From positions 462,666-526,665 of the forward strand of contig NZ_QNRQ01000002.1 of the NCBI RefSeq assembly GCF_003315175.1: a DNA stretch of 64,000 bases, read 5' to 3'. Below are positions 16,308 to 49,392 of the stretch, in pieces. The position numbers and the translations under genes were made by a program. The stretch comes from Eoetvoesiella caeni. GTDB taxonomy: Bacteria > Pseudomonadota > Gammaproteobacteria > Burkholderiales > Burkholderiaceae_B. Numbering within the stretch: the stretch's first letter is position 1; each line of letters starts with the position of its first letter. The notes beneath the pieces are model-generated. The model was not told the origin of the DNA and made no database searches. It saw nothing but the letters and a program-made list of their open reading frames with translations.

Positions 16308-16323
16308 GCTCTGTATACTGAGC
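16308..16323. promoter_or_regulatory. PicR-like operator in the picR promoter
   Basis: GCTCTGTATACTGAGC is an imperfect palindrome centred on TATA and, read on the minus strand, contains TCAGTATACAGA, one base from the TCAG-N4-CT pattern found at the other pic promoters. It lies 37 bp before the picR ATG, a position suited to autorepression. Confidence 0.55.
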
Positions 16324-16359
16324 ATTCGAGACATTCGTTACGACAAGGTTCGCGGCAAA

Positions 16360-16923
16360 ATGACAAAGGTACACAAGCAGTCGATGCAAGAAGCACAAGC
16401 TGACGATCATGCCTTCAGCCCTCTTGAAGAGCACGGCCTGTTTGATAACGATACGGTGGCCGAGCCGTTCAGCCAAGGCTTGTGGTCGCGCCCTGGTTTC
16501 CTGGTGCGCCGTCTGAACCAGATTCACTACGCCATGTTCTTTGAAGAATGCAAAGAAGAAAATGTAACCCCGGTTCAGTATGGAATTTTGACTGTTTTGG
16601 CGGCCAATCCCTGGCTGGATCAGACGGCCATAGGCTACGAGGTGGGGCTGGACCGTACGACTTCGGCCGACGTCATCAAGCGCCTTGAAGAAAAAGGCTT
16701 GCTAGAGCGCCGGATCAATCCCATGGACCGCCGTTCGCGCCAGGCCGCCGTTACTCCCGAAGGCTTGCGAGTCATGGCCTTGCTGAAGCAGGGCATGGCC
16801 CGGGCACAGCAGCGCCTGCTCGATCCTTTATCGCTGCGCGACCGCAAAATCTTCATGTCGCTGCTGGTCGAACTGGTCGACGCCAACAACCAATACGGCA
16901 GGGCCGTCCTCAAGTCGGTTTAG
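16360..16923 (+). CDS. picR: MarR family repressor of the picolinate/hydroxypyridine pathway (PicR/NicR)
   Basis: The 187-residue protein has a MarR winged helix: NQIHYAMFFEECKEENVTPVQYGILTVLAANPWLDQTAIGYEVGLDRTT through VIKRLEEKGLLERRINPMDRRSRQAAVTPEG. It closely resembles NicR of Pseudomonas putida, which controls the nic genes, and by gene order corresponds to PicR of Alcaligenes faecalis. The ATG at 16360 was preferred over the ATG at 16306, because the latter overlaps a candidate operator. It is expected to bind TCAG-N4-CT sites at picC, picB and picA promoters and to be released by a pathway pyridine such as 6-hydroxypicolinate. Confidence 0.85.
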   Translation: MTKVHKQSMQEAQADDHAFSPLEEHGLFDNDTVAEPFSQGLWSRPGFLVRRLNQIHYAMFFEECKEENVTPVQYGILTVLAANPWLDQTAIGYEVGLDRTTSADVIKRLEEKGLLERRINPMDRRSRQAAVTPEGLRVMALLKQGMARAQQRLLDPLSLRDRKIFMSLLVELVDANNQYGRAVLKSV

Positions 16924-16964
16924 GGTTTGCCCCAGTGGGCCAACCCATAGAAATTCTTATAAAT

Positions 16965-16980
16965 AGTCAGTATACTGACT
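16965..16980. promoter_or_regulatory. PicR operator in the picC promoter (perfect 16-bp palindrome)
   Basis: AGTCAGTATACTGACT is a perfect palindrome containing TCAG-TATA-CTGA. It lies between picR and picC, about 200 bp before the picC start. It is the best match of the set and fits the TCAG-N4-CT motif reported, as I recall, for PicR. Confidence 0.75.
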
Positions 16981-17186
16981 TAATCGGCTTCCATAACGGT
17001 GGATGGCGCGGGTCAGGCCGCCCCGATACAAAAGGCCTGCCCCATGCGCATCGCGACGGGCTGGGCGCCGCTTTCTTCCCGCGCAATATTGGACGACAGC
17101 GGCACTCATCCTCAGCACACTGATAAAAATCGCCATGCCGCTGAACCGGGCGGGGGCACGGCCATCTGTCAAACGAGGAGAGTTGA

Positions 17187-18149
17187 GTGAGTCGGATACG
17201 CAAGATTGCTTTTGAAGAACATTTTTCGGCGGTGGGCTTCGGCGATTATTCCCAAGCCTTTGTCAGTCAGATAGCGCCGCAGGTGGCCGCCGAGCTGAAT
17301 GCGCGTTTAAGCGACTTCGGCGCCATGCGCCTGCAGGAAATGGACAAGGCCGGCATCGATTACGTCATCCTGTCGCAGACGGGCCCCGGGGTGCAAGTAG
17401 AACTGGACACGGCGGTCGCCATCGCCCGTGCGCGGGAAAACAATGATTTTCTGGCGGCCCAGGTGGCACGCAACCCCGAGCGTTTCGGCGGTTTTGCCAC
17501 GCTGCCCATGCAGGATCCGCAGGCCGCCGCCGACGAGCTCGAGCGCGCCGTCAAGGTACTGGGCTTCAAGGGGGCGCTGGTAAACGGCCATACCAATGGG
17601 GTGTACTACGACGGCCCCGCGTACGATATATTTTGGGAACGCATGCAGGCGCTGGATGTGCCTTTGTATTTGCATCCGTTCGACGCTTACGGCCCAACCC
17701 ATTCTTATAACGGCCATCCCGAAATAGCGGGTGCCACCTGGGGCTGGGGAGTGGAAACGGCCACCCATGCGCTGCGGCTGCTGTTCGGCGGCGTGTTCGA
17801 CCGTTTTCCAGGGCTGAAGGTAATCCTGGGACATATGGGCGAAGGCCTGCCGTTCCAGCGCTGGCGTTTCGACAGCCGCTTTGCCGTTTATCCCTGCGGA
17901 GTAAAGCTCAAGCGCCAGCCATCGCAATATATTGGTACTAATATTGTCATTACCACGTCGGGCGTATGCTCTGCGGGCGCCTTGATGGGCGCGATCGCCG
18001 AGATGGGGCCCCAGGCCGTCATGTTCTCGGTGGACTACCCATACGAGTCCAGTTCCATCGCCGCCGACTTCATCGAGCAAGCCCCGATGGACGATGCAAC
18101 GCGGGCCCTGGTATACTACGGCAACGCAGAGCGGCTGTTCAAGCTATAA
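17187..18149 (+). CDS. picC: 3,6-dihydroxypicolinate decarboxylase (amidohydrolase/ACMSD family)
   Basis: The 320-residue protein is a metal-dependent decarboxylase of the gamma-resorcylate decarboxylase/ACMSD type: E-x-H-like EEHF at residues 10-13, His163 in LYLHPFD, ILGHMGEGLPFQRWR and Asp283 in SVDYPYES supply metal and catalytic residues. In the picolinate route PicC turns 3,6-dihydroxypicolinate into 2,5-dihydroxypyridine, the substrate of picD two genes downstream, which makes this assignment strong from context. Translation starts at a GTG (17187), with GAGGAG 7 bases upstream. First gene of picCEDF. Confidence 0.87.
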   Translation: MSRIRKIAFEEHFSAVGFGDYSQAFVSQIAPQVAAELNARLSDFGAMRLQEMDKAGIDYVILSQTGPGVQVELDTAVAIARARENNDFLAAQVARNPERFGGFATLPMQDPQAAADELERAVKVLGFKGALVNGHTNGVYYDGPAYDIFWERMQALDVPLYLHPFDAYGPTHSYNGHPEIAGATWGWGVETATHALRLLFGGVFDRFPGLKVILGHMGEGLPFQRWRFDSRFAVYPCGVKLKRQPSQYIGTNIVITTSGVCSAGALMGAIAEMGPQAVMFSVDYPYESSSIAADFIEQAPMDDATRALVYYGNAERLFKL

Positions 18150-18163
18150 CGAAAGGGAGACCC

Positions 18164-18985
18164 ATGAGCACTTATCTTTATGGCGCCAATGTCCACGCCA
18201 ACGGCATCCGCCAGCACTATCTGCGCTATGGCGGAACAGACGGCGCCCGCGCCGGGCGCGACGCGGTGGTTCTGGTGCCGGGCATAACCAGCCCCGCCAT
18301 TACCTGGGGTTTTGTGGGCGAGCGTCTGGGCAGCCAATTCGATACCTATGTTCTTGATGTGCGGGGGCGCGGCCTGTCCGAGGCGTCGGATACGCTGGAC
18401 TACAGCCTGGATGCGCAAGCGACGGACGTGATCGAGTTTGCCAAGGCCCTGGGACTGAATAAATACAGCATAGTGGGGCATTCCATGGGCGCGCGCATTG
18501 CCATTCGTGCGGCTCGTTCGAACCCCGCGGGGCTGACCCGGCTGGTTCTGGTGGATCCGCCGGTATCGGGTCCTGGGCGCCGGGCTTATCCGTCCAAGCT
18601 GCCTTGGTATGTCGACTCCATGGCGCTGGCGCGCAAGGGCTGCAGCGCCGAAGACATGCGCAGCTTCTGCCCGACATGGACGGACGAACAATTGAAGCTG
18701 CGGGCCGAGTGGCTGCATACCTGCGACGAGCGCGCCATTCTGGCCAGCTTCGACGGATTTCACGATGACGACATCCATGCCGACCTGCCTCATATCAAGG
18801 TGCCGGCCTTGTTGATGGCGGCCGAGCGCGGCGACGTAATCCTGGAAGAAGACGTGGCCGAGATCCGCGGCTTGCTGCCCGGGGTCGAAACCACGCGGGT
18901 GCCCGGCGCCGGCCATATGATTCCCTGGGACAACGAAGAGGGCTTCTATCGTGCCTTCGGCGGCTTTCTGGGCGCCGAGCTTTGA
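18164..18985 (+). CDS. picE: N-formylmaleamate deformylase (alpha/beta hydrolase, NicD-like)
   Basis: The 273-residue hydrolase contains the nucleophile elbow GHSMGAR (Ser107), an oxyanion/lid region LVDPPVSGPGRRAYPSKLPWYVDS that is nearly diagnostic of NicD, and the catalytic His251 in GAGHMIPWD. It hydrolyses N-formylmaleamate, the product of 2,5-dihydroxypyridine cleavage, to maleamate and formate. The ATG at 18164 lies 14 bp after picC behind AAAGGGAG. The order picC-E-D-F matches the published Alcaligenes cluster. Confidence 0.9.
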   Translation: MSTYLYGANVHANGIRQHYLRYGGTDGARAGRDAVVLVPGITSPAITWGFVGERLGSQFDTYVLDVRGRGLSEASDTLDYSLDAQATDVIEFAKALGLNKYSIVGHSMGARIAIRAARSNPAGLTRLVLVDPPVSGPGRRAYPSKLPWYVDSMALARKGCSAEDMRSFCPTWTDEQLKLRAEWLHTCDERAILASFDGFHDDDIHADLPHIKVPALLMAAERGDVILEEDVAEIRGLLPGVETTRVPGAGHMIPWDNEEGFYRAFGGFLGAEL

Positions 18986-19026
18986 TACCAAAGGCTTGAA
19001 CCAATCCGTTCAATTAGGAGAACACC

Positions 19027-20070
19027 ATGCCTGTCAGCGACTATCAACTTATCGAGGCCTGGAAGCAGGTCTTGACGCTCTCGAACCTGGAGCGCGGCCA
19101 AAGCGTTACCATCTTGACCAGTTCCGCCACGCATCCGCAAACCTTGGCGGCTGCGACGATAGCAACCCAAGCCATGGGAGCGGTCGTCAACCGCCTTGAT
19201 CTGCCGCCCGTCAATGCCGAAAAGGCGCTAAGCCGCGACCCGCTGGCCTACTTGGGTACGACCCCGCTTACTGGCAATCGTCCCGCCATCGCCGCCTTGA
19301 AAGAAAGCGACCTCGTGCTGGACCTGATGACGTTATTGTTTTCACCCGAACAGCACGAAATTCTTGCGTCCGGCACCAAGATCCTGCTGGCGGTCGAGCC
19401 GCCCGAAATCCTGGTGCGCACGGTGCCGACCGAGGGCGACCGGGCGCGGGTGAAGGCGGCTTCGGCGCGCATCGCCAAAGCCAAGGAGATGACGGTCGTT
19501 TCTGCGGCGGGAACCGATCTGCGTTGCCCGCTGGGACAGTTCCCGGTAATCAGCGAGTATGGCTTTGTCGACCAGCCGGGGCGGTGGGACCACTGGCCCA
19601 GCGGCTTTGCGCTGACCTTTCCCGACGAGGGCGGGGCCAACGGACGCATTGTCATCGACGTGGGCGACATCCTGCTGCCGCAAAAATCCTATACCACCAG
19701 CCGCATCGAGCTGACCGTTGAAAACGGCTACGCCACCAAGATCGAAGGCGGTATCGACGCTGAATTGCTGCGCGACTATATGGCCTCGTTCAACGACCCC
19801 GAAGGCTATGCGATTTCGCATATAGGCTGGGGCCTGCAGCCGCGTTGCCACTGGTCCACGCTTTCGCTGTACGACAAGGAACAGACCATAGGCATGGACG
19901 CGCGCGCCTTTGAAGGCAATTTCCTGTTTTCCCTGGGGCCCAACAACGAAGCCGGCGGCAGCCGGACCACGGCCTGCCATATCGATATCCCGCTGCGCCA
20001 TTGCACGGTGCGGCTTGATGGCGAAGACATGGTCCGCGACGGCAAGGTGCTGGACGGGGGCGTGAAATGA
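19027..20070 (+). CDS. picD: 2,5-dihydroxypyridine 5,6-dioxygenase (NicX-like)
   Basis: The 347-residue protein matches the M29-aminopeptidase-like fold of NicX. The iron ligands of Pseudomonas NicX are conserved at the same numbers: His265 (ISHIGWGLQPR), His318 and Asp320 (CHIDIPLRHC). It also has LAVEPPE and EYGFVDQPGRWDHWPSGF. The enzyme opens the ring of 2,5-dihydroxypyridine with oxygen to N-formylmaleamate. It could be misannotated as an aminopeptidase by family alone; context and ligands make NicX the better call. picF overlaps its stop by 4 bp. Confidence 0.92.
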   Translation: MPVSDYQLIEAWKQVLTLSNLERGQSVTILTSSATHPQTLAAATIATQAMGAVVNRLDLPPVNAEKALSRDPLAYLGTTPLTGNRPAIAALKESDLVLDLMTLLFSPEQHEILASGTKILLAVEPPEILVRTVPTEGDRARVKAASARIAKAKEMTVVSAAGTDLRCPLGQFPVISEYGFVDQPGRWDHWPSGFALTFPDEGGANGRIVIDVGDILLPQKSYTTSRIELTVENGYATKIEGGIDAELLRDYMASFNDPEGYAISHIGWGLQPRCHWSTLSLYDKEQTIGMDARAFEGNFLFSLGPNNEAGGSRTTACHIDIPLRHCTVRLDGEDMVRDGKVLDGGVK

Positions 20071-20696
20071 GCCAGGGCAACGACGTGCAAACTTATGCGC
20101 GCCAGGGATTTGGCGCACGGCTTGAACTGAAAAAGCCGGTGGGCCTGTTGATCATCGACTTCGTCAATGGCTTTGCCGATCCGAAGGTGTTTGGCGGCGG
20201 CAATATTGCGCAGGCCATTGCCAATACGGTGCCGCTGCTGGCGCATGCGCGCGAGTGCGGCTGGGCGGTGGCGCATAGCCGTATTGTCTTTGCCGACGAC
20301 GCCGCGGACAACAATATTTTCAGCTTGAAAGTGCCCGGCATGCTTACGCTTAAAGAACACGAGCACAATAGCGCCATCGTGCCGGAACTGACGCCGGCCC
20401 AGGGCGAGCTGGTGGTGCGCAAGACCGTACCGTCGGCCTTCTTTGGCACGACGCTGGCGGCATGGCTGGCTCAGCGCGGCGTGCAGACTTTGGTAGTGGC
20501 GGGTGCGGTTACCAGCGGCTGCGTGCGCGCCAGCGTGGTCGATGCCATGCAGTATGGTTTTCGGCCGTTGGTGCTGGCCGACTGCGTGGGCGACCGCGCC
20601 CTGGATCCGCACGATGCCAATTTGTTCGATATGGAGCAAAAATACGCCACGGTGCTGAACCGCGATGAAGCGCTGAAGGCGCTGGCTGCTATCTAA
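20067..20696 (+). CDS. picF: Maleamate amidohydrolase (isochorismatase family, NicF-like)
   Basis: The 209-residue protein has the cysteine-hydrolase triad Asp31 (LLIIDFVNGF), Lys119 (VVRKTVPSAFFGT) and Cys152 (AVTSGCVRAS), spaced as in the NicF maleamate amidase of Bordetella. It releases ammonia from maleamate, giving maleate. Its ATG overlaps the picD TGA (ATGA). It is the last gene of picCEDF and is followed by a strong terminator. A maleate isomerase gene, needed to reach fumarate, is not adjacent. Confidence 0.9.
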   Translation: MSQGNDVQTYARQGFGARLELKKPVGLLIIDFVNGFADPKVFGGGNIAQAIANTVPLLAHARECGWAVAHSRIVFADDAADNNIFSLKVPGMLTLKEHEHNSAIVPELTPAQGELVVRKTVPSAFFGTTLAAWLAQRGVQTLVVAGAVTSGCVRASVVDAMQYGFRPLVLADCVGDRALDPHDANLFDMEQKYATVLNRDEALKALAAI

Positions 20697-20717
20697 GCAA
20701 GCCTTTGCTCAAGCAAG

Positions 20718-20753
20718 AATCCCCCAAGAGCTTCGTTCCTGGGGGATTTTTTT
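20718..20753 (+). terminator. Rho-independent terminator after picF
   Basis: AATCCCCCA at 20718-20726 pairs with TGGGGGATT at 20740-20748, with a 13-base loop and a run of seven T. It lies between the convergent picF and picB genes, where it would end the picCEDF transcript. Confidence 0.88.
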
Positions 20754-20835
20754 GGACTGGACCCAAGCGCTGCCTTTGTGGCGGGGCGGCTGTGCAGGCC
20801 GGCCGCGCCAAGGCGCAGCAGCCCAATGCGCAAGC

Positions 20836-21369
20836 TTAAACGGGATAGACCAGGTCGTTGGCCAGGATGGCCGTGTCATAGATTACCTGGCGCTCCTTGA
20901 GCAGGAGTTTGTCGCCGCCGGCCTGGACAAAGCGGTCGTAGTAACGGCCGGCCAAGTGGACGGTGGAAGGGCCTTCGACCAGGGTTTGAATCAGCAGGAA
21001 GTTGGCTTCGGCCTCGACCTCGCCATCGGCGGTTTCGTCGATGATGCGAATATTGGTCACCAGGTGCAGGTTATGGCGCGGCGCAAACATCTGCGTGCGG
21101 CCGATCGCCACGGCGCGGTCATGCATCATGTCGCGCCCTTCGGCATATACCAGCCCGACAGGCAGCTTCAGGTCGGCGTTCTGGCGCGAGGTAATGCGGT
21201 ACAGCGCGTCTTCGGTAAAGAACTCGGGCCATAGCTCAACGTCGCCGGTGTCCAGCACGGCACAATATTCTGCATGAAAGTCGTTGATCTGCGCCCGCAG
21301 CAGTCGCGACCGCGCCGGATCGATGCGCGCAGGCGTATAGGTGTAGTCCATTTTCATAGTGTTGAGCAT
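20836..21369 (-). CDS. picB4: 6-hydroxypicolinate monooxygenase, small (beta) oxygenase subunit
   Basis: The 177-residue protein is a ring-hydroxylating dioxygenase beta subunit (SnoaL-like cone): NDFHAEYCAVLDTGDVELWPEFFTEDALYRI and GLVYAEGRDMMHDRAVAIG, with the C-terminal AGRYYDRFVQ strand region. It begins one base after the alpha-subunit stop and is the last gene of the minus-strand picB operon. In the published cluster (picRCEDFB4B3B2B1A1A2A3, from memory) this position is picB4; the number is assigned by position. Confidence 0.82.
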   Translation of the reverse strand: MLNTMKMDYTYTPARIDPARSRLLRAQINDFHAEYCAVLDTGDVELWPEFFTEDALYRITSRQNADLKLPVGLVYAEGRDMMHDRAVAIGRTQMFAPRHNLHLVTNIRIIDETADGEVEAEANFLLIQTLVEGPSTVHLAGRYYDRFVQAGGDKLLLKERQVIYDTAILANDLVYPV

Positions 21370-21370
21370 G

Positions 21371-22660
21371 TCAGAAATCCATTACGCCGCGGTAGTATTG
21401 ATACATGGCCCGGATGGCCGCTTCCGAGATCAGCGATTCGGACGTGCCGATCTTGCCGGAGTCCAGCTTGATGACATTGACGTTGCTGCTGGAGCGGCGC
21501 ACGCCTTCCTGCACGAACTTCATGGCTTCGTTGTCTTCCAGGCCGAGAAAGCCCGAGGGGCCCATCAGGTTGCCCTGGCGCAGGCGGTGGCGCGTCATTT
21601 CCTCGGTGTCGTCGGCATAGCCGAACATGGTCCATTCCATGATCATACTGTTGGGGCCGTTGGGAATGATCTGGCGCACGCCCATGGTGTTCATTTCGCG
21701 CTGTACGACGAGATTGGGCCAGACGGTTTGCATGGTGACCGACCAGGGCGAGTCGAATTCCTTGATGAATTCCAGGAAGCGTTCATCGCGCAAGCGCATG
21801 CCGTCGTTGAACGAGCGCATTTCTTTCTTGGTTTCTTCGCTGACGGCGGCGTAGAGATCGTCGGTTTTGGCGGAGCCCATGATGCCGTGGCGGCCGTGCT
21901 TGGAGTCGGCCAGCATCATGGATTTGTTGCCGGCCACCAGCAGGCCGAAGACGACCAGGAAGGAGTGCAGCAGGGTGGCGTGGTAGGGATCCTTCAGGTT
22001 CTCGTGGTACATCTTCCAGTTGCATGGCACTTCGTTGCGGTAGTAGCCCAGTATCTTCAGGGGCTTGCCGGGGAAGGCCACATTGAAGTCTTCCAGGATC
22101 TCCGGGGTCAGGTATTGCTCGATGGGTTCGACCTTGTCGGAGTACGAGGCGAACACCACGCCGTGGTGGGTGGTGACGTTCAGCTTGCGCAGGCCATGGT
22201 CTTCGTTGCGAAAATCGCGCGGCATGCCGCCCGCCTTGTTGACGCCGCGCTTGAATGGCACGCCCTGCAGATTGCCTTTCAGGTCGTACGACCACTGGTG
22301 ATAAGGGCAAACGAACTCGTTGGCGTTGCCGTGGCTGTGGCGGCAGAACTCGGCGCCGCGATGGGCGCAGCGGTTTTCAAAAACATGCAAAGAACCGTCT
22401 TGCGCGCGCGAGACGACAACCGGTGTGGCGCCCACGAACGAGCGCTTGTAGTCGCCCGGATTGGGGATTTCGGTCTCCAGGGCCACGTAGTTCCAGGTGT
22501 CGCCGTGGAAAATGCGTTCCATTTCGCGGTCGTAGACTTCCTGGCTGGTGTAGACCCAGTCGGGAATGGCGTCCAGGCCTTCGGCGGGCCAGGCGCAATC
22601 GGCCAGCGCTGCATCTTTGGAGCCGACAGTTTGTCCGATGACGGATTGTGATTGATACAT
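21371..22660 (-). CDS. picB3: 6-hydroxypicolinate monooxygenase, Rieske large (alpha) subunit
   Basis: The 429-residue protein has the Rieske motif CAHRGAEFC followed by CPYHQWSYDLKG and the mononuclear iron site in ENLKDPYHATLLHSF, the D-x2-H-x4-H arrangement of multi-component ring-hydroxylating oxygenases. With the beta subunit, a Rieske ferredoxin and an FAD reductase in the same operon, it forms a four-component system that in Alcaligenes hydroxylates 6-hydroxypicolinate at C3. It is of the anthranilate/salicylate-hydroxylase-like alpha type, unlike the single-subunit VanA-type enzymes elsewhere in the window. Confidence 0.85.
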   Translation of the reverse strand: MYQSQSVIGQTVGSKDAALADCAWPAEGLDAIPDWVYTSQEVYDREMERIFHGDTWNYVALETEIPNPGDYKRSFVGATPVVVSRAQDGSLHVFENRCAHRGAEFCRHSHGNANEFVCPYHQWSYDLKGNLQGVPFKRGVNKAGGMPRDFRNEDHGLRKLNVTTHHGVVFASYSDKVEPIEQYLTPEILEDFNVAFPGKPLKILGYYRNEVPCNWKMYHENLKDPYHATLLHSFLVVFGLLVAGNKSMMLADSKHGRHGIMGSAKTDDLYAAVSEETKKEMRSFNDGMRLRDERFLEFIKEFDSPWSVTMQTVWPNLVVQREMNTMGVRQIIPNGPNSMIMEWTMFGYADDTEEMTRHRLRQGNLMGPSGFLGLEDNEAMKFVQEGVRRSSSNVNVIKLDSGKIGTSESLISEAAIRAMYQYYRGVMDF

Positions 22661-22693
22661 GGAAGGTCTCCTGAGGTATTCGGTAAGTGCCGG

Positions 22694-23980
22694 TCAGCCG
22701 GGCGTTGCCGCCAGGGCCTGGGCCGCTTTGGCAAACGCCCGTACGGTCATGCTTTCGTCGCAGAACTGTGCGGCTTCGACAGGCAAGGCGCGCTCGAGCA
22801 GGGGGCGCAGCGCGCGCAGGTCGCCGCCGGCATTGACCGCCAGGGCCTGATAAGGCTTGCCGCCGTGCAATCCCAGCATGATGAAGCGTGGCGAGTCGGA
22901 CGCGGAATCCAGGCTGCCCCGCACGATGTAGTCCAGGTCGGGGCGGGGCAGGCCCAGCATCTGGATATTGCAGTCGAACTGGTCGGTCCAGAACCATGGG
23001 TACGCGGCGGGCTCGGCGTCTTGCCCAAGCATGGAGCAGGCGGCGATTCGGGCCTGTTCATTGGCGTTTTGCCAGGACTCCAGGCGCAACGGCAAGGCGG
23101 TGTCGGCGCGGGTCTGGCTGGTGCAGTCGCCCGCCGCATATATGTAAGGGTCGCTGCTGCGGCAGTGCGCGTCGACTGCGATGCCGCCGTTGGACATATC
23201 GACCCGCAAGCCGGCGCTGCCGGCCAGTAGGGTGCTGGGCGCCAGGCCGATGGCGACGGCGACTGCGGCGGCCTGGATGCGGGTACCGTCGGCAAGGCCC
23301 AGAATGGCCGGCTGGCCGGCGTCGTCGGGCAATTGAACGTCGGCGATGGCTTGGCCGGTATAGAGTTTGGCGCCGTATTGCGCAATGCGTTCCTGCATCC
23401 AGGCAGAAAAAATCGGCGGGACGACGCGCGCAAGAACGCGCGGCGCGGTTTCGACGATGGATACGTCAACGCCCAGGCCAAGTGCCGTCGAGGCGATTTC
23501 CAGCCCCAGGAACCCGCCGCCGACCACGGCAATATGCTGGCCTGGGCGCAATCGTGCGCGCAGCGCGCGTGCGTCGTCCAGCGTGCGCAGGTAATGCACC
23601 GCCGGCGATGACGCCGGGAAAGCGGGCAGGGTGCGGGCCGTGCCGCCGGTGGCCAGCAGGCAGCGGTCGTAGCCTAGACGGGTGCCGTCGGACAGCACGG
23701 CCTGGCGGGCGCTGGGGTCCAGAGCGCAGACTTCGACGCCCAGGCGCAAGTCGACCTGCTGGCTGTGGAAGAAGTCGGGCGCCTTGACGGCGATGGCCGG
23801 TTCGGGGGTGTCGACGGCGGCCAGGACCGACTTGGACAGCGGCGGCCTTTCGTATGGAGCATGGGCTTCATTGCCGACCACCGTAATGCGGCCGGAGTAG
23901 CCATGGTCGCGCAGGGCGGAGGCGGCAACCGCCGCCGCCTGGCCCGCGCCGACTATAAGAATGGAAGAGATGGACGTCAT
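22694..23980 (-). CDS. picB2: FAD-dependent ferredoxin reductase of the 6-hydroxypicolinate monooxygenase
   Basis: The 428-residue flavoprotein shows an N-terminal FAD Rossmann motif (ILIVGAGQAAAVAASAL), YERPPLSKS, an NAD motif (IAVVGGGFLGLEIASTALGLG) and the second FAD site (IYAAGDC), the layout of BphA4/AhpF-like ferredoxin reductases. It transfers electrons from NADH to the Rieske ferredoxin encoded next upstream. It lies 33 bp upstream of the alpha subunit in the minus-strand operon. Confidence 0.87.
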   Translation of the reverse strand: MTSISSILIVGAGQAAAVAASALRDHGYSGRITVVGNEAHAPYERPPLSKSVLAAVDTPEPAIAVKAPDFFHSQQVDLRLGVEVCALDPSARQAVLSDGTRLGYDRCLLATGGTARTLPAFPASSPAVHYLRTLDDARALRARLRPGQHIAVVGGGFLGLEIASTALGLGVDVSIVETAPRVLARVVPPIFSAWMQERIAQYGAKLYTGQAIADVQLPDDAGQPAILGLADGTRIQAAAVAVAIGLAPSTLLAGSAGLRVDMSNGGIAVDAHCRSSDPYIYAAGDCTSQTRADTALPLRLESWQNANEQARIAACSMLGQDAEPAAYPWFWTDQFDCNIQMLGLPRPDLDYIVRGSLDSASDSPRFIMLGLHGGKPYQALAVNAGGDLRALRPLLERALPVEAAQFCDESMTVRAFAKAAQALAATPG

Positions 23981-24004
23981 GCTGGTTCTCGATGCGCCGG
24001 TCGG

Positions 24005-24310
24005 CTATAAGGCGACGAAGATATCCTGGCCTTCGGTTTTGACGGGATAGGTCTGGACGCCGACTGTGGCCGGCGCGCACATGGCCTGGCCGGTGCGCAG
24101 GTCGAACTTGGCCTGATGCAGCGGGCATTCGATGCAGCCATCTTCAAGGAATCCGTCGGACAGCAACGCATATTGATGGGTACAGACGTTGTCGGTAATG
24201 AACAGTTCGTCGTCGCATTGATGTAGCGCCAATTGTTTGCCCTGGACTTCGATTGCCAACGACTCGTCGGCTGCTATTTGGTCCACGCTTGCGATTTTTA
24301 TCCAGTTCAT
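24005..24310 (-). CDS. picB1: Rieske-type ferredoxin of the 6-hydroxypicolinate monooxygenase
   Basis: The 101-residue protein contains the Rieske ligands in CTHQYALLSDG and CPLHQAKFDLRTG, as in BphF/NdoA-type ferredoxins, and no other domain. It shuttles electrons between the FAD reductase and the oxygenase. It is the first gene of the minus-strand picB operon; a PicR-like box lies 37 bp upstream of its start. Confidence 0.87.
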   Translation of the reverse strand: MNWIKIASVDQIAADESLAIEVQGKQLALHQCDDELFITDNVCTHQYALLSDGFLEDGCIECPLHQAKFDLRTGQAMCAPATVGVQTYPVKTEGQDIFVAL

Positions 24311-24758
24311 AAAGCCATGTATCTTTGAGTTTTACGATTAATATAGTCAGTATGCTGTATATCTATTGGTCCAAATATTGGGGTTTCCACTAGTTTTTGG
24401 CCGCATCAGGGCGGCATCCCGCCGGTTTTGCGGCGGCGCTCGCCCGGACTTGAGAAAAGCGGCGGCCATACAGGAGAATTGCGGCGTTGGCCGAGGTATT
24501 TCAATTGCCTCATTTCGAAGGGCCTATGCATTAAATCTCCGTATTTACCCTCGTTGACACTGAATTTATTGATCAGCATACTAACAAATCACTCAGCGTG
24601 CTGACGGATTTTTTGCCGGATGCTCCGTGCAAACTTTCTGCAACGGCGCTGGGCGCTAAGGAGACAAGCTGGCGGCCATGGTCAATAAACATGCTCCCGC
24701 TATGCAATTGCCGCATCGACAAGCCAAACCAATATCCAATTCATAAAAGGAGCTGTAC
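24311..24758. promoter_or_regulatory. Divergent pic control region with three PicR-like boxes (24347, 24573, 24593)
   Basis: This 448-bp gap lies between picB (minus) and the TRAP/picA genes (plus). It holds TCAGTATGCTGT at 24347-24358 near the picB start, and TCAGCATACTAA at 24573-24584 with TCAGCGTGCTGA at 24593-24604 on the side of the TRAP/picA genes. The latter two start exactly 20 bp apart, about two helical turns, which would put bound dimers on one face. All fit TCAG-N4-CT. No gene was seen here. Confidence 0.65.
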
Positions 24759-25853
24759 ATGCAACGACGCCGCTTTCTTACACAGGTCGCCGCCGCTACC
24801 GGGGCAGGACTGGCAACCGTGGGCTTGCCCGCCATTGCCGCACAAACGCCTACCGTGCGCTGGCGCATGTCCACAGGCTGGCCTAAAAGCCTGGACGCCA
24901 TTTACGGCTCCGCCGCCGAACTCTGCAAACGCGTTGGCGAGCTTACCGAAGGCAAGTTCGAAATACGCGCCTTCCCGGGCGGCGAAATCGTGCCTTATGC
25001 CCAAAACATGGAAGCCGTCGGCAATGGCACGGTTGAATGCAACCATGTGCTGGCAACCGCCCACATCGGCACCAATACGGCGGTGGCATTCGACACCGGC
25101 CTGTCGTTCGGCATGAATGCGCGCCAGCACAACTCCTGGATCCAATATGGCGGCGGCATGGAAATGCTGCGCGCCATGTACAAGCAGTACAACATCGTCA
25201 ACTTCGTGTCGGGCAACGTGGGCGTGCAAATGGGCGGCTGGTTCCGCAAGGAAATCAAATCGCTGGCCGACCTGAAGGGCCTGAAAATGCGCATCGGCGG
25301 CATTGGCGGCATGGTGCTGTCCAAGCTGGGCGCGATACCGCAGCAGATTCCTCCCGGCGACATCTATCCGTCGCTGGAAAAAGGCACGATCGACGCGGCC
25401 GAATGGATAGGACCTTACGATGACGAAAAACTCGGCCTGAACAAGGTTGCGCCCTACTACTATTCGCCGGGCTGGTTCGAAGGCAGTGCCTCGATCACCA
25501 CCATGGTCAACGAGAAAGCATGGAATGCCTTGCCTCCCGTTTTCAAGGCGGCATTCGAGTGCGCTTGTAATGAACAGGCGCTGCGCATGCTGGCCAACTA
25601 CGACGCGCATAATCCCGCGGCACTGCGCAAGCTGGTTGCCGGCGGCGCCAAGCTGGGCTACTTTCCCAAGGACGTCATGCAGGCCGCATACAAGGGCTCG
25701 CAAGAATTGTGGACCGAGCTTTCGGCCAAGAATCCCGACTTTGCAAAAATCTATCCCAGCTGGAAAAAATACCAGGAAGACGAGGCAAGCTGGTTCCGTG
25801 TAGCGGAAAACGCACTCGATAACTTTACCTTCAACGCTTTGGCGCAGCGCTAG
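24759..25853 (+). CDS. TRAP transporter solute-binding protein (DctP family) with Tat-type signal
   Basis: The 364-residue protein opens with MQRRRFLTQVAAATGAGLATVGLPAIAA, a twin-arginine signal, and continues as a DctP/TAXI-like binding protein of the mannonate/keto-acid type (WRMSTGWPKSLDAIYGSA, FEIRAFPGGEIVPYAQNMEAV, MRIGGIGGMVLSKLGAIPQQIPPGDIYPSLEKGTIDAAEWIGPYDDEKLG). It would bind a carboxylate in the periplasm. It is the first gene after the PicR-like boxes, 46 bp before picA; matching permeases (DctQM) occur only about 7 kb downstream. Picolinate or 6-hydroxypicolinate is a plausible ligand by context only. Confidence 0.86.
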   Translation: MQRRRFLTQVAAATGAGLATVGLPAIAAQTPTVRWRMSTGWPKSLDAIYGSAAELCKRVGELTEGKFEIRAFPGGEIVPYAQNMEAVGNGTVECNHVLATAHIGTNTAVAFDTGLSFGMNARQHNSWIQYGGGMEMLRAMYKQYNIVNFVSGNVGVQMGGWFRKEIKSLADLKGLKMRIGGIGGMVLSKLGAIPQQIPPGDIYPSLEKGTIDAAEWIGPYDDEKLGLNKVAPYYYSPGWFEGSASITTMVNEKAWNALPPVFKAAFECACNEQALRMLANYDAHNPAALRKLVAGGAKLGYFPKDVMQAAYKGSQELWTELSAKNPDFAKIYPSWKKYQEDEASWFRVAENALDNFTFNALAQR

Positions 25854-25899: not shown

Positions 25900-28299
25900 A
25901 TGAAACTCTCCGATCACCCCACGAAGGCGGCCAAGGAACAGGGCGTGGGGGCACGTCTGCTGCGCAAGGAGGACGCCCGGCATCTGCAAGGCAAGGGCAA
26001 CTTCATCGGCAACATGAGCATGCCCAATATAAGCGAGGTCGCGTTCTTGCGCAGCCCGCTAGCCCATGCCCGGATTGCCGCCACGCGCGTTGCCCAAGAA
26101 GCGGAAAACGTATTCCTGCGCGATTCGCTGACTGGGGTGCTGGACATCGTGGCGGATTCCACCTTGCCTTCGTACCAGGTGTCGGCCATGCCGCCCCTGG
26201 CGCATGGCAAGGTGCGCTACGTCGGAGAACCGGTGGCCATGGCTTTTGCGCCCACGCGCGCACAGGCCGAAGACCTGACCGAGCTGATCGAGGTCGATTA
26301 CGACGACCTGCCTGTTTATGTGGATGTGGCAAGCGCCGCGGCGGCCACGTCCGACCTGATCCACGACGAGTGGAAAGACAACGTTTTCGTCAGCCTCAGC
26401 GCCGACAAGGACTTCGACAAGCTTGCGGCCCAGGCCGACGTGGTCGTTACCCGCAAAATGAATTTGTCGCGCCAGTGCATGCTGCCTATGGAAGGCATGG
26501 CCGTGCTGGCGTACTGGGACCACCAGGCCGACCAGCTGGTGGTGTATGCCTCGACCCAGGTTCCACATTTAATCCGCACCGGCATCGCTCAGTTCCTGCA
26601 AATGGACCAGGAGCAGGTGCGGGTCATTTCGCCCGATGTCGGCGGGGGCTTCGGCTATAAGTGCGTATTGCAGCGCGAAGAGCTTTGCGTTGCCTGGCTG
26701 GCCAAGACGTACAAACGGCCCTTCCGTTACCTGGAGGACCGGCGCGAGCACTTGATTGCCGGCGCAAATACCCGCGAACACCATTATGAAATGACGGCCT
26801 ACGCCGATCGCAAGGGCCGCTTGCTGGCGCTGGACGCCAAAATAACCATCAACGGCGGCGCGTATTCTGTATGGCCGTTTACCACCGGGCTGGAAACAGG
26901 ACAGGCATTGGGCAACCTGCCCGGGCCGTATGCATTCCAGGGCTATCGCTGCACCACGCGCTGCGTCGCCACCAACAAGCCGGCATTCCTGCCGTATCGC
27001 GGCGTGGCCCGCACGGGCGTTTGCTTTGCCATGGAACTGACCATGGACGCGCTGGCCCGCGAAGTGGGCCGCGAACCCTGGGAAGTGCGCCTGGAAAATC
27101 TGGTCCAGCCCGAGCAAATGCCGTATGTCAACGTCACCAACAAGCACTTCGACAGCGGCGACTATCCCGCCAGCCTGCGCCGCGCCCTTGAAATGATCGA
27201 TGCGCAAGGCGTGCGCGAACGCCAGCAGCACGCAGAACCCGACGGCCGCCTTATCGGCCTGGGCGTGGCTACTTATACCGAGCAGTCGGCGCATGGCACA
27301 TCGGTATTCGCCGCCTGGGGCACGCCCGTCATCCCGGGCTTCGACCAGGCCGCGGTGCGCATGACGCCCGACGGCGGCCTTGAAATCAAAGTGGGCGTGC
27401 ATTCGCACGGGCAGGGCATGGAGACCACGTTCGCCCAGATCGCCAACGAAATACTCGGCGTCGATGTGGCGCGCATACGCCTGGTGCACGGCGACACCGG
27501 GCGCACACCGTATTCCACGGGCACCTACGCATCGCGCTCGCTGGTCATGTCGGGCGGCGCAGTGTCCCGTGCATGCAAGCAGCTTTTGCCGAACCTGCAA
27601 AAAATAGCCGGCCATTTGATGGGTGCCGATTCCTGGCTGGTTCAGTTCGAGAACGGCATGGCGATAGCCGGCGATAAAAGCATCCCTTTGGCGCAGGTCG
27701 CCAATGCCTGGTATTTGAATCCGCAGTTGCTGCCCGCGGACGTCGACCCTGCGGGCCTGGAGGTCAGCGTGGGCTACAAGCCCAAGGTGGACACCGGCAG
27801 TTTTTCATACTGCAGCCAGGCGGCCATCGTGGCCGTGGACCCCGGCACGGGATCGGTCGAAATCCTGGACTACGTGGTGGTGGAAGATTGCGGCACCATG
27901 ATCAACCCCATGGTGGTCGAAGGCCAGGCCATAGGCGGAATTGCGCAGGGCATAGGCACGGCGCTGTATGAAGAAACGCCTTACGACGAGTACGGCCAAC
28001 CGCTGGCATCGACGCTGGCCGACTACGTAATGCCCGGGGCGACGGAAGTGCCCAATATCCGCTTCGACCATTTTGAAACGCCTTCGCCTCATACCGAATT
28101 CGGCGCCAAGGGCGTCGGCGAGGGCGGTGCAATCGCGCCGCCGGCCGTTATCTTCGGCGCGGTCAACGACGCCTTGCGCGGACTGGGCGTTGAAGTATCG
28201 CAAACACCCCTGACGCCGCATCGTCTTCTGGAGGCGCTGGCGCAGGGACGCGAGGCGGGCCTTGCGGCCGCCAGCGGCAAGCAGGGAGCAGGACAATGA
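25900..28299 (+). CDS. picA: Picolinate dehydrogenase, molybdopterin-binding large subunit
   Basis: The 799-residue protein is a xanthine dehydrogenase-family large subunit: GVGARLLRKEDARHLQGKGNF at the N-terminus, GGGFGYK, EYRGVARTG-type region (PYRGVARTGVCFAMEL), SHGQGMETTFAQIANEILGV and the terminal FGAKGVGEGGAIAPPAVI with the catalytic glutamate. It holds the molybdenum cofactor that hydroxylates picolinate at C6. The FAD subunit gene overlaps its stop by 4 bp. By role it belongs to PicA; I do not assign the subunit number. Confidence 0.87.
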   Translation: MKLSDHPTKAAKEQGVGARLLRKEDARHLQGKGNFIGNMSMPNISEVAFLRSPLAHARIAATRVAQEAENVFLRDSLTGVLDIVADSTLPSYQVSAMPPLAHGKVRYVGEPVAMAFAPTRAQAEDLTELIEVDYDDLPVYVDVASAAAATSDLIHDEWKDNVFVSLSADKDFDKLAAQADVVVTRKMNLSRQCMLPMEGMAVLAYWDHQADQLVVYASTQVPHLIRTGIAQFLQMDQEQVRVISPDVGGGFGYKCVLQREELCVAWLAKTYKRPFRYLEDRREHLIAGANTREHHYEMTAYADRKGRLLALDAKITINGGAYSVWPFTTGLETGQALGNLPGPYAFQGYRCTTRCVATNKPAFLPYRGVARTGVCFAMELTMDALAREVGREPWEVRLENLVQPEQMPYVNVTNKHFDSGDYPASLRRALEMIDAQGVRERQQHAEPDGRLIGLGVATYTEQSAHGTSVFAAWGTPVIPGFDQAAVRMTPDGGLEIKVGVHSHGQGMETTFAQIANEILGVDVARIRLVHGDTGRTPYSTGTYASRSLVMSGGAVSRACKQLLPNLQKIAGHLMGADSWLVQFENGMAIAGDKSIPLAQVANAWYLNPQLLPADVDPAGLEVSVGYKPKVDTGSFSYCSQAAIVAVDPGTGSVEILDYVVVEDCGTMINPMVVEGQAIGGIAQGIGTALYEETPYDEYGQPLASTLADYVMPGATEVPNIRFDHFETPSPHTEFGAKGVGEGGAIAPPAVIFGAVNDALRGLGVEVSQTPLTPHRLLEALAQGREAGLAAASGKQGAGQ

Positions 28300-29126
28300 A
28301 GGCGGCAAAATTCGAACACACACATGCAAGCACCGTCGCCGACGCGTTAAGCGCGCTGGCGGGCCTTGACGGCGCCTGCAAGGTCATGGCGGGCAGCCAG
28401 TCGCTGGGACCCATGTTGAACCTGCGCCTCGCGCGTCCGGCCGCCGTGGTGGATATTTCGAGCGTGCAAGAGTTGCGCACCGTTACCGAAGTCGGCGATA
28501 CCGTGCGCGTCGGTGCGGCCGTTACCCATGCACAAATCGAAGACGGCGTGTTCGAGCCATTGCGCGGGCATATGCTGCAAGAAGTGGCAGGGCGCATTGC
28601 ATACCGTGCTGTGCGCAACCGCGGCACCCTGGGCGGAAGCCTGGCGCACGCCGACCCCGCGGCCGACTGGGTATTGGCGGCCACGGCGCTGGCGGCCGAA
28701 ATTGAAATCGTTTCAGCGAAAGGTACGCGGCGTGTCGCCATGCCGGCGTTCATGCATGGCGCATACACGACCGAGGTCGGCCCCGATGAAATGATTGCCG
28801 CGATCTACATACCCAAGAAAAACGCCGGCGCGCGGTGGGGCTATTACAAGTTTTGCCGCAAGACCGGCGAATTCGCCGAAGCCAGTTGCTCGGCTTATTT
28901 CGACCCGGCCGCAAAAGTGGCGCGTATTGCCGTGGGTGCGCTGGACGGCGCCCCGCGCTACCTGAACGAGCTGGCGGGCCGTGTCGCGCAAGAAGGATTG
29001 AAGGCCGCGGATGCGGATTCGATCGCCGCGGCGATCGAGACCATTACGCCGGACAAGAGTGCGGTCGACCGACGTTTGTATGCCACGGTGGTTGAACGTT
29101 GTTTGCGCCAGGCGCTGGGCCAGTAG
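28296..29126 (+). CDS. picA: Picolinate dehydrogenase, FAD-binding medium subunit
   Basis: The 276-residue protein matches the CoxM/CutM FAD domain: AGSQSLGPMLNLRLARPAAVVDIS is the first FAD loop, and RNRGTLGGSLAHADPAADW is the second (the TxGGxxAxADPAxE-like motif). It relays electrons from the molybdenum site through FAD to the acceptor. The start ATG overlaps the large-subunit TGA and the gene is followed 10 bp later by the iron-sulfur subunit. Length agrees with the family (about 280 residues). Confidence 0.87.
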   Translation: MKAAKFEHTHASTVADALSALAGLDGACKVMAGSQSLGPMLNLRLARPAAVVDISSVQELRTVTEVGDTVRVGAAVTHAQIEDGVFEPLRGHMLQEVAGRIAYRAVRNRGTLGGSLAHADPAADWVLAATALAAEIEIVSAKGTRRVAMPAFMHGAYTTEVGPDEMIAAIYIPKKNAGARWGYYKFCRKTGEFAEASCSAYFDPAAKVARIAVGALDGAPRYLNELAGRVAQEGLKAADADSIAAAIETITPDKSAVDRRLYATVVERCLRQALGQ

Positions 29127-29136
29127 AGGAATGCAA

Positions 29137-30333
29137 ATGTCTGAAGTATCAATGGAAATCAATGGCCGCATGGTGGCCCGCGACGTCGCACCGCGTACCC
29201 ATCTGGGCGACTTCCTGCGCGAAGAAGTGCGCCTGACCGGCACCAACCTAAGTTGTGAACACGGCGTTTGCGGGGCATGCACGGTGCTGCTCGACGGCCA
29301 ACCGGTGCGCTCCTGCATTACGTTTGCCGTTGCTTGCGACGGCCGCCAGGTCACGACCATCGAGGGCTACGACGACGACCCCATCATGAGCCGTGTGCGT
29401 GCCGCATTTCATCAACACCACGCTTTGCAGTGCGGCTTTTGCACGCCAGGCATGGTGGCCACGGCGCGCGATATTGTGTTGCGGCTGCCCGAGGCCGACG
29501 AGGCCCGGGTGCGCATCGAATTGTCCGGAAACATTTGCCGTTGCACGGGATATCAGGGGATTACGGCTGCGGTCATGTCGGTGCTTTCAGACCTGCGCGC
29601 GCAGCCCGATGCCCAGGTTGACGCTTTGCGCAGCTTGATGGCGGAAGGCAAAACGGCCTTGCTGCCGGCGGCGCAAGCAAGCGCTGCGGCGTTTACCGGC
29701 TTCAAGGCCGAGCAGCCCGCGGCGGCGCCAGTCCAGCCGCAGCCGGCGGCTACGGCAGCTGCGCCAGCGGGCGCGGCGGGCAAGGGCTCCAGCATCCAGG
29801 GCGGCTTCGACGTGCCTTTCCCCGCAGCGCAGGTATGGGCCTTCATGGCCGACCTGCCGGCGGTCGCCAGTTGCCTGCCGGGCGCGGTGATCGAAGAGCA
29901 GGACGGCGACAGCGTCAAGGGCAAGATTGCCATCAAGTTCGGCCCGATGGCGGCGGCTTTCAACGGCACGGCGCAACTGGAACGCAACGAGCAGCAAATG
30001 TCGGCGATGTTGCGCGGCTCGGGCCAGGACTCGCTAAGCCAGTCGCGAGCCAAGGGCGATATCGGCTACCGGGTGCTGGCGGTTTCCGAGCAGGCAAGCC
30101 GGGTCGAAGTCGACCTGCTGTACGCCTTGCAAGGCCCGCTGGCGCAATTTTCGCGGTCGGGGCTGGTGCAGGACTTCGTGCGCCGCATGATTGCCGATTT
30201 CGGGCGCAACGTGACCTTGCGCCTGCAGAACCCGGCGGGGGCAGGCCAAGCCTTGCCGCAGGCCGAACTGAAGCCATTCAGGATGTTCATGGGTGTGCTG
30301 TGGGAAAGAATCAAGCGTCTTTTCGGCGCATAG
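29137..30333 (+). CDS. picA: Picolinate dehydrogenase [2Fe-2S] subunit fused to a CoxG-like SRPBCC domain
   Basis: Residues 1-160 are a CoxS-type subunit: CEHGVCGACTVLLDGQPVRSC for the plant-type cluster and CGFCTPGM...CRCTGYQ for the second cluster. An Ala/Pro/Gln-rich linker (about 175-205) leads to a C-terminal SRPBCC domain (GGFDVPFPAAQVWAFMADLPAVASCLPGA, then KFGPMAAAFNGTA) typical of CoxG, which in carbon-monoxide dehydrogenase clusters is a separate membrane-anchoring protein. Total is 398 residues, about twice a normal small subunit. The ATG at 29137 has AGAGGA at the right distance; an ATG six bases earlier is too close to it. Confidence 0.85.
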   Translation: MSEVSMEINGRMVARDVAPRTHLGDFLREEVRLTGTNLSCEHGVCGACTVLLDGQPVRSCITFAVACDGRQVTTIEGYDDDPIMSRVRAAFHQHHALQCGFCTPGMVATARDIVLRLPEADEARVRIELSGNICRCTGYQGITAAVMSVLSDLRAQPDAQVDALRSLMAEGKTALLPAAQASAAAFTGFKAEQPAAAPVQPQPAATAAAPAGAAGKGSSIQGGFDVPFPAAQVWAFMADLPAVASCLPGAVIEEQDGDSVKGKIAIKFGPMAAAFNGTAQLERNEQQMSAMLRGSGQDSLSQSRAKGDIGYRVLAVSEQASRVEVDLLYALQGPLAQFSRSGLVQDFVRRMIADFGRNVTLRLQNPAGAGQALPQAELKPFRMFMGVLWERIKRLFGA

Positions 30334-30394
30334 CGCTCGAGCCAGGTGCCGATACAGAGTAGGAAATCCACTTTTTTCATATTAGGCGAGGTTG

Positions 30395-31429
30395 ATGATG
30401 AAAAAGATAATGTCTGCTGCGTGGCTGCGTATTGCGATGAGCGCGACGGGGTGTCTGATGGCTGCTGCGGCGGCGACCGCCCAAAGCCTTGAGCCCCTGG
30501 CTGTGCGCCTGGACTGGACGCCCTGGGGCGTTCATGCTGCCTTTCATCTGGCGCAGCAAAATGGCTGGTATAAGCAGGCCGGCCTGGATGTGCGTTTCGA
30601 GGACGGCAATGGTTCTGTGACGACGGTGCAGATCGTGGGCTCGGGCGACAGCTTCGACGTGGGCCACGCGGCCCTGGCGTCGATGATGATTGCGCGCGAC
30701 AAAGGCTTGCCGGTCAAGGCTGTGGCGGTTTTTGCACGGCGCAGCGACATAGGCCTGCTGGTACCGGACGATTCGAATATCAAGGGGCCGGCCGACCTGA
30801 AAGGCAAGAAAGTGGTCTACACCGCGGGTTCCCTGGAAGCGCCTTTCATCGATTCCTTCCTGGCGGCCGGCGGCATCAAGCGCAGCGATGTCGAGCTGCT
30901 TAATGTGGATGCCGCCAGCAAGGCAACTACCTATGCGGTAGGCCGTGCGGATGCGGGCGTTTCGACGATTCCCTTCTTTTTGCCTGTGGTTTCGCAGTCG
31001 CGTCCTTCGCATGCCATCAGCTTTGCCGACTACGGCCTGAACATGCCCAGCTTCGGCATTTTCGCCAATGAAGACAAGCTGAAGACGCGCGGTGAAGCCA
31101 TTTCCAAGTTTGCCAGCGTAACCGCCCGCGCCTGGCAGTACATATACGACGGCCATCAGGACGAGGCCGTCAATGCCATCATCGCGCAGCGTCCGCAGGC
31201 GCGCCTGGATCGCAAGGTGTTGCGCGGCCAGATCGATGCGCTGAAGCCTTTCTTCGGTACGCCGCCGGCTGGCACGCCGATGGGCGCACCCGTGCCGGCC
31301 AATTGGGAACAGGCCGTCAAGACCTTGTCCTCCGTGGGCCTGATCGGCACCAAGGCTCCGGCAACCGATTACTACGTCAGCGGCCTGGTTCATCCCGAAA
31401 AATACGACGCGATGGTGTCCAAGAAATGA
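30395..31429 (+). CDS. NitT/TauT-type (NMT1/SsuA-like) ABC substrate-binding protein
   Basis: The 344-residue protein has a signal peptide and the NMT1-like start PLAVRLDWTPWGVHAAFHLAQQNGWYKQAGLDVRFEDGNGS, then GHAALASMMIARDKGLPVKAVAVFARRSDIGLLV. Relatives bind thiamine precursors, sulfonates or aromatic carboxylates. The start is one of two adjacent ATGs (30395/30398) behind AGGCGAG; a TTG lies just before. The ATPase gene overlaps its stop by 4 bp. It follows picA by 61 bp in the same direction, so import of a pyridine carboxylate is likely. Confidence 0.87.
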   Translation: MMKKIMSAAWLRIAMSATGCLMAAAAATAQSLEPLAVRLDWTPWGVHAAFHLAQQNGWYKQAGLDVRFEDGNGSVTTVQIVGSGDSFDVGHAALASMMIARDKGLPVKAVAVFARRSDIGLLVPDDSNIKGPADLKGKKVVYTAGSLEAPFIDSFLAAGGIKRSDVELLNVDAASKATTYAVGRADAGVSTIPFFLPVVSQSRPSHAISFADYGLNMPSFGIFANEDKLKTRGEAISKFASVTARAWQYIYDGHQDEAVNAIIAQRPQARLDRKVLRGQIDALKPFFGTPPAGTPMGAPVPANWEQAVKTLSSVGLIGTKAPATDYYVSGLVHPEKYDAMVSKK

Positions 31430-32214
31430 GCGTATCGGCCGTACATGCCCATAATTTGTCCAAGCAGTATCCGGGCTCTCGCGGCGTTCAGGCGCTGGCG
31501 GGCGTCAGCGCCGATATCGGGCTGGAGCGTTTCGTCAGCATCCTTGGGCCCAGCGGCTGCGGCAAGAGTACGTTCTTGCGGTGCGTGGCCGGGCTCGAGG
31601 ACGTAACCGGGGGCGAGCTAAGCGTCAATGGCAAGCCGGTGCAGGGGCCGCCCGACGATATCGGCATGGTGTTTCAGCGCGATGCCCTGCTTGAATGGCG
31701 CAGCATCCGCAAGAACATTCTGCTGCCTGTCGAGTTCGCCAAGAAGCAATCGTCGGCATATCAGGAAAAAGTGGACTATCTGCTTAACCTGACGGGCCTG
31801 AGCGATTTCGGCTCGAGCTACCCGCGCGAATTGTCGGGCGGGATGCGGCAGCGCGCGGCAATCTGCCGGGCGCTGGTCGACGATCCGAAACTGTTGCTGA
31901 TGGACGAGCCTTTCGGTGCGCTGGATGCGTTTACGCGCGACCAGATGAATGTCGAACTGCAGCGCATCTGGATGCAGACGCGCAACACCGTGCTGTTCGT
32001 GACCCACGGTATTTCCGAAGCTGTTTTCCTGGGCGATGTCGTCATGGTGTTTTCGCCCAGGCCGGGGCGCCTGGTGGAAACCATCGAGATCGACTTGCCT
32101 CGCCCACGCCATTTGTCGGTGCGCGAAACGCCCGAATTCGGCCGCTATGTTGCTCATATCCGCGGCATCTTCGAGGAAATGGGGCTGATCAACGAAAAAG
32201 GGGCTGCCGTATGA
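31426..32214 (+). CDS. NitT/TauT-type ABC transporter ATPase
   Basis: The 262-residue ATPase has a Walker A (LGPSGCGKST), a Q-loop region (MVFQRDALLEWRSIRKNI), the signature LSGGMRQRAAICRAL and Walker B (LLLMDEPFGALDAFTR). The DALLEW segment is typical of SsuB/TauB/NrtD-like proteins. The ATG sits within ATGA at the end of the binding-protein gene, and the permease gene overlaps its own stop in the same way, giving translational coupling across the three genes. Confidence 0.9.
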   Translation: MSVSAVHAHNLSKQYPGSRGVQALAGVSADIGLERFVSILGPSGCGKSTFLRCVAGLEDVTGGELSVNGKPVQGPPDDIGMVFQRDALLEWRSIRKNILLPVEFAKKQSSAYQEKVDYLLNLTGLSDFGSSYPRELSGGMRQRAAICRALVDDPKLLLMDEPFGALDAFTRDQMNVELQRIWMQTRNTVLFVTHGISEAVFLGDVVMVFSPRPGRLVETIEIDLPRPRHLSVRETPEFGRYVAHIRGIFEEMGLINEKGAAV

Positions 32215-33684: not shown

Positions 33685-33686
33685 TC

Positions 33687-49316: not shown

Positions 49317-49392
49317 GTAAGCGTCCGGCCAACACATCTTGAGCCCGAGTCTTGTTCGTAAGAGCATACGTGTCCATTAACGAGGTGGACAC

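Follow-up and report, generated by a model that had tools for sequence, protein, structure and literature searches.

The stretch studied here, called the window below, comprises 64,000 nucleotides of the genome of Eoetvoesiella caeni (assembly GCF_003315175.1, contig NZ_QNRQ01000002.1, positions 462,666 to 526,665). Open reading frames and profile matches show that it carries a picolinate-degradation (pic) cluster, whose gene names were assigned by similarity. Our subject is a set of short palindromic boxes in front of the pic genes, considered here as candidate operators of PicR, the MarR-family regulator encoded in the same cluster. The genes concerned are, in window coordinates:

16360..16923, + strand: picR, MarR-family regulator of 187 aa; Pfam MarR/MarR_2 above cut-off; orthologues of 58-79% identity, which sit in loci with pic genes.
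17187..18149, + strand: picC-like amidohydrolase; Pfam Amidohydro_2; long matches in relatives, 65-85% identical.
20836..24310, - strand: picB-type Rieske oxygenase genes; Pfam Rieske, Ring_hydroxyl_A/B, Pyr_redox_2 and Reductase_C.
24759..25853, + strand: picT1-like solute-binding protein of a tripartite ATP-independent periplasmic (TRAP) transporter; Pfam DctP PF03480, NCBIfam TRAP_S1 above cut-off.

The genes picR and picC run in tandem, the latter being the first of a picCDEF-like unit (17187 to 20696) and encoding, as judged by similarity, a putative 3,6-dihydroxypicolinate decarboxylase. The picB-type set comprises beta subunit, alpha subunit, reductase and ferredoxin. Downstream of the TRAP gene lie picA-like molybdenum hydroxylase genes (25900-30333), whose subunit models give strong matches that remain below their own cut-offs, and a single operon appears to hold the uptake gene together with those of this first enzyme. 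Six boxes were found upstream of these genes (ranks refer to the weight matrix described below):

16310..16321 (16-bp frame 16308-16323): picR box TCTGTATACTGA, core 7/8, 50 bp before ATG 16360, rank 5.
16967..16978: picC distal box TCAGTATACTGA, core 8/8, rank 1.
17112..17123: picC proximal box TCAGCACACTGA, core 8/8, its first base 75 bp upstream of the picC start, rank 6.
24347..24358: picB box TCAGTATGCTGT, core 7/8, lying 37-48 bp upstream of the ferredoxin start, rank 2.
24573..24584: TRAP/picA box 1 TCAGCATACTAA, core 7/8, covering the -10 element, rank 3.
24593..24604: TRAP/picA box 2 TCAGCGTGCTGA, core 8/8, exactly 20 bp downstream of box 1, rank 4.

An earlier reading of this DNA, the original prediction, had proposed five boxes with a shared TCAG-N4-CT core at the pic promoters. 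All five are where it placed them, with the last two starting exactly 20 bp apart (24573 and 24593); 16965-16980 (AGTCAGTATACTGACT), which encloses the picC distal box, is the perfect 16-bp palindrome it described, and the picR box is indeed a palindrome with one base off. The number has to be raised to six, as the box at 17112-17123 had been missed. With regard to the picR box, an in-frame ATG at 16306, upstream of ATG 16360, offers an alternative start that would place the box within the reading frame.

What also had to change is the description of the core. As written, TCAG-N4-CT matches in 36 rows over the window where shuffles lead one to expect 20.1, 36 being reached in 1 of 100 shuffles. 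Just 8 of these rows, belonging to 5 sites, fall upstream of pic genes, for which reason the core was rejected as a site predictor. When at least 7/8 core bases and a YRYR spacer are required, 8 matches are left in the 64 kb, 6 of them within the 828 bp that lie upstream of pic genes. The relatives allow a more elaborate definition. A set of 41 unique picB-picT intergenic regions, 40 from relatives plus the window, was assembled by requiring picT at 70% identity or more and a ferredoxin at 50% or more within 1 kb and keeping unique sequences only; L040, L062 and L089, the last of which has a box, fall outside this set together with exact duplicates. Because the relatives are related by descent, many of the Achromobacter-like regions being near copies, the counts over them are descriptions and not probabilities. 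The 40 relatives' regions contain 109 boxes, compared with a mean of 0.27 and a maximum of 3 in 200 shuffles; every one of them (40/40) holds at least one box and 36/40 at least two. A weight matrix made from 57 unique sites of these 40 regions, window excluded, places the six window boxes at ranks 1-6 of the 64 kb, with scores of 32.9, 26.4, 24.9, 21.2, 18.5 and 18.2, the next best score in the window being 11.8.

The spacer reads YRYR in 109 of the 111 strong matches in the 40 regions, compared with 162 of 698 matches over the whole loci L054-L133 (many same sites included), and therefore the operator is better written TCAG-YRYR-CTGA, a description with four free bases being too loose. As symmetry was imposed on the matrix and its training sites were YRYR sites, its spacer content is partly there by construction, which does not hold for the 109/111. 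It also displays A/T-rich palindromic flanks outside the 12 bp, and the consensus is T-N2-TCAG-YRYR-CTGA-N2-A with A/T outside. The idea of one operator common to picR, picC, picB and TRAP/picA is strongly supported, with conservation across genera, whereas its core should read TCAG-YRYR-CTGA rather than TCAG-N4-CT.

The geometry of the boxes is clearest at the promoter of the TRAP gene, which is the best promoter-like match of the scanned region (10/12):

24554..24582, + strand: TRAP/picA promoter, TTGACA at 24554-24559, 17 bp, CATACT at 24577-24582, with the -10 element inside the operator.

In the TRAP direction, a -35 element of at least 5/6 lies 16-18 bp before the box's -10 in 37 of the 41 regions, 27 of them with 6/6, while the same test in the picB direction finds at least 5/6 in 2/41; the background rate of such -35 matches in picB-picT regions is about 1.6% of positions. 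The composite TTGACA-N12-14-TCAGYRYRCT is matched once in the genome of 4.75 Mb, in front of the TRAP gene, and its reversed control not at all. Among 268 genomes of the family the exact composite occurs in 48, in 30 of which its coordinates place it next to pic genes, and in G198, where the picC-like gene adjoins picT, it is still found in front of picT. Box 2 (24593-24604) would cover the predicted transcription start. These observations also strongly support the proposal that the regulon includes the TRAP gene, the DctP gene at 24759 being preceded by the operator-promoter composite (24554-24604) and followed by the molybdenum-hydroxylase genes.

The boxes upstream of picC and picR are conserved to different degrees. 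The picC set consists of 29 unique upstreams (30 rows less 1 duplicate), of which 22 have a box, perfect in 20 of those, and in 14 of the 28 others than the window a proximal-type box lies 64-73 bp before picC. The picR set consists of 43 unique upstreams, window included (48 rows less 1 duplicate and 4 whose upstream DNA is shorter than 200 bp), and 33 of them have a box, imperfect in all 33 (7/8), counting as boxes those of the window and L135, which lie inside a longer reading frame. Since the picR box is imperfect in 33/33, self-repression of picR may be weaker. This claim is limited by the genomes of group g4, whose picR loci lie outside the 43. We call them Alcaligenes-type, since two records named as Alcaligenes have exactly the same intergenic regions as L037 and L051. 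In the nine genomes of this type that were examined picR and picC are divergent, and a perfect box lies 76 bp before picC in 9/9 with an additional weaker one in 5/9; the region shared by the two genes has a perfect box on the picC side in all nine, joined in five by an imperfect one closer to picR. Of the 38 unique rows counted for the picB half, the window among them, 36 have a box, L082 and L087 being without.

We consider it very probable that the six boxes are PicR operators and that PicR, when bound, covers the -10 element and so represses transcription, at the TRAP/picA operon too. Several results weigh against this reading and should be set beside it. The TRAP composite is absent in 4 of the 41 regions (L034, L082, L083 and L087), and the exact TTGACA composite in all ten g4 genomes (0/10), where TTGACC stands instead of TTGACA in 8 of the 9 Alcaligenes-type regions seen. 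Of the 48 genomes with the composite, 18 have their match away from pic. No box at threshold was found in 10/43 picR and 7/29 picC upstreams. A sigma-70 -35/-10 pair with the -10 inside the operator is present at TRAP and missing at picB, where the box lacks a good -35 at the right spacing (1/6 in the window), and -10 occlusion is therefore unsupported there. The picC distal box does contain a -10-like TATACT with a -35-like TAGAAA (4/6) at 17 bp, but both picC boxes of the window have a -35 of only 4/6, a level reached by 11.9% of positions in picB-picT regions and not exceeded in any of the 29 unique picC upstreams. TCAGYRYRCT has 147 rows genome-wide, 8 of them at pic among the matches listed. 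To this must be added the kinship of the relatives' regions mentioned above.

The whole-genome motif scan that the original prediction called for has two sides: short forms of the motif are frequent off pic, whereas the TTGACA composite is unique and lies at the TRAP promoter. Adding a T at -3 to TCAGYRYRCT leaves 44 rows, 5 at pic, and both forms were rejected as predictors, as was TCAGNNNNCTGA, with 73 genome sites versus 32 for its reversed control. Nine further genome sites with A/T-containing spacers, picked by eye from 100 TCAGYRYRCT matches listed and read as 2.4-kb stretches, were not accepted as regulon members. They are single boxes, about five of them inside likely genes, and the exact TTGACA composite has its one match in this genome at pic. 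One lone TCAGTATACTAT (L194 1201-1212, G000:C2:581510) lies about 100 bp before a gene resembling flavoproteins of the ferredoxin/thioredoxin-reductase type, and is a possible extra PicR target. The off-pic composites of the family, at which genes were named by the look of the sequence, belong to six g31 genomes with similar sequence, two g27 genomes and ten others. In the two g31 genomes that were read, the box TCAGCATGCTGA precedes an amidohydrolase-like gene (L203 1544-1555, L204 1500-1511), which may be one more target of PicR in this genus; in g27 a TTGACA-box composite lies before a gene for an HPP-like membrane protein, with a TetR-like gene on its other side (L205 1543-1570, L206 1552-1579). 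The remaining ten, G176 among them, which was read, were treated as chance.

Two other explanations of the boxes themselves have to be weighed. As the spacer and CT of several of them read as -10 elements (TATACT, CATACT), and the CATACT at TRAP lies 17 bp from TTGACA, these cores might be nothing but -10 elements and the surrounding palindrome incidental. This is extremely improbable, for TCAG and CTGA are conserved even though they fall outside the -10, the boxes at 24593 and 17112 would serve poorly as -10s on account of their GC-containing spacers (CGTG, CACA), boxes of this sort recur in relatives, and the A/T-rich palindromic flanks of the matrix extend beyond the 12 bp. The boxes might also be operators of another regulator, such as one of the three MarR paralogues in the genome, which are 36-40% identical to PicR; the one on C3 (about 40%), divergent from a gene that by its look encodes a transporter of the major facilitator superfamily, has TCAGTACTCTGA just upstream (L002 2025-2036, G000:C3:103930). 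The spacer of this site differs (YRYY), and it is perhaps a sister operator. PicR itself has a winged-helix MarR domain (PF01047 and PF12802 above cut-offs) and the recognition-helix motif LDRTxxADVxKRL, present in 48/48 PicR orthologue sequences of at least 55% identity (41 unique) and in 0/3 of the nearest paralogues of its own genome, all three of which differ in the recognition-helix residues. Its matched part is 66-69% identical to picC-linked proteins in all nine Alcaligenes-type genomes, in agreement with orthology to the PicR encoded in Alcaligenes pic clusters. Considering as well that picR is found together with pic genes in many of the loci examined, and that PicR, by the title as cited, is published as the pic repressor, we regard control by another regulator as very unlikely.

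How the doublet at TRAP works is a more balanced matter. Cooperative binding on one DNA face, which the original prediction read from the 20-bp spacing, is a conjecture. The two boxes could be bound by two independent PicR dimers without cooperativity, the 20-bp repeat arising from promoter geometry, which we hold to be quite possible, if somewhat short of probable. Many relatives carry a single box at the TRAP promoter, and the second picT box is absent in 9/9 Alcaligenes-type regions (L059 and L060 rechecked) and in several others; moreover, 20 bp (about 1.9 turns) misses two full turns by about 34 degrees, and the doublets on the picB side of Achromobacter-like genomes are spaced 21-22 bp. 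On the other hand, doublets of exactly 20 bp are found on the TRAP side in 19 of the 41 intergenic regions and at picC in 10 of the 29 unique upstreams, suggesting that the spacing is selected at two promoters, an argument weakened by the relatedness of the genomes. A cooperative, positive-feedback switch at TRAP/picA, in which the doubled operator and the weaker self-operator of picR would together give an all-or-none, hysteretic induction, is more doubtful, though conceivable. If it existed, lineages with a single box, e.g. Alcaligenes, would respond in a graded way.

Returning to repression by PicR through the six boxes, we infer from sequence its binding, the occlusion and the induction, which would proceed as follows. 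Without substrate, PicR dimers would occupy the boxes. At TRAP/picA, and possibly at picC, the centre of the operator doubles as the -10 element, so that bound PicR would block RNA polymerase, while TRAP box 2 and the proximal picC box, both downstream, would probably strengthen the block. An intermediate produced by the first enzyme of the pathway itself would then release PicR; in JQ135 the releasing compound is reportedly 6-hydroxypicolinate, the product of PicA. Uptake and first enzyme being apparently in one operon, induction would therefore feed itself.

The region downstream contains further genes, recognized by their look. An ATP-binding cassette (ABC)-type uptake set (binding protein, ATPase and permease; 30392-32981) follows the picA-like genes and is itself followed by genes for TRAP-like small and large permeases (33067-35351), so the picA operon may carry two transport systems, one ABC-type and one TRAP. 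Insertion-sequence-like transposase genes lie at 49183-49980, downstream of the pic cluster.

Concerning known systems, the MarR-family protein PcaV of Streptomyces represses a pathway for aromatic acid, its ligand being protocatechuate. It is the closest solved structure to PicR by sequence (PDB 4fht, 4g9y; E=1.7e-25). BpsR of Bordetella (PDB 6PCP, 6PCO) also resembles PicR in being a MarR-family repressor of a pyridine-carboxylate pathway, that of nicotinate, and 6-hydroxynicotinate, a hydroxylated intermediate, alters its shape with loss of affinity for the nic promoters (PMC6837509). The substrate and genes are different and the sequence is distant (E=5e-8), and by analogy BpsR is a useful functional counterpart of PicR.

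A regulon of this kind had been offered as a new prediction, but PicR control of pic is already published: by its title as cited, the work of Xu et al. 2022 (Appl Environ Microbiol, doi 10.1128/aem.00172-22) describes PicR as a MarR-family repressor of pic in A. faecalis JQ135, and PMC10142695 compares the pic gene order of Bordetella bronchiseptica with that of JQ135 and cites the PicR paper. JQ135 and the window are alike in having a MarR-family repressor of a pic cluster. Palindromic TCAG-N4-CT sites are present in the window in both the picR-picC and the picB-picT regions. JQ135 is said to have similar gene groups, arranged in four operons including picT1A1A2A3T2T3MN, and the same type of palindrome (motif TCAG-N4-CT), reportedly with a single site between picR and picC and two between picB and picT1. 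If the operons are as reported, membership of the transporter in the regulon was already known. By comparison, one box at picR, two at picC and the 20-bp TRAP doublet are found in the window, whose tandem picR and picC differ from the divergent arrangement of the nine Alcaligenes-type genomes. Our literature search returned nothing on doublets or on a -10 overlap of PicR sites; the original PicR paper lay outside it, so this is no proof of absence. The window adds a further, predicted pic regulon to the known kind, with extra operators and a doubled site at TRAP/picA.

This analysis takes a regulator published for a single strain to a sharply defined operator model over a bacterial family. The motif is refined by the YRYR spacer and the A/T flanks, and the operator is found fused with the -10 element at the promoter of uptake and first step. 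Finally, the doublet separates lineages and leads to predictions on switch behaviour in pyridine degradation that can be tested.

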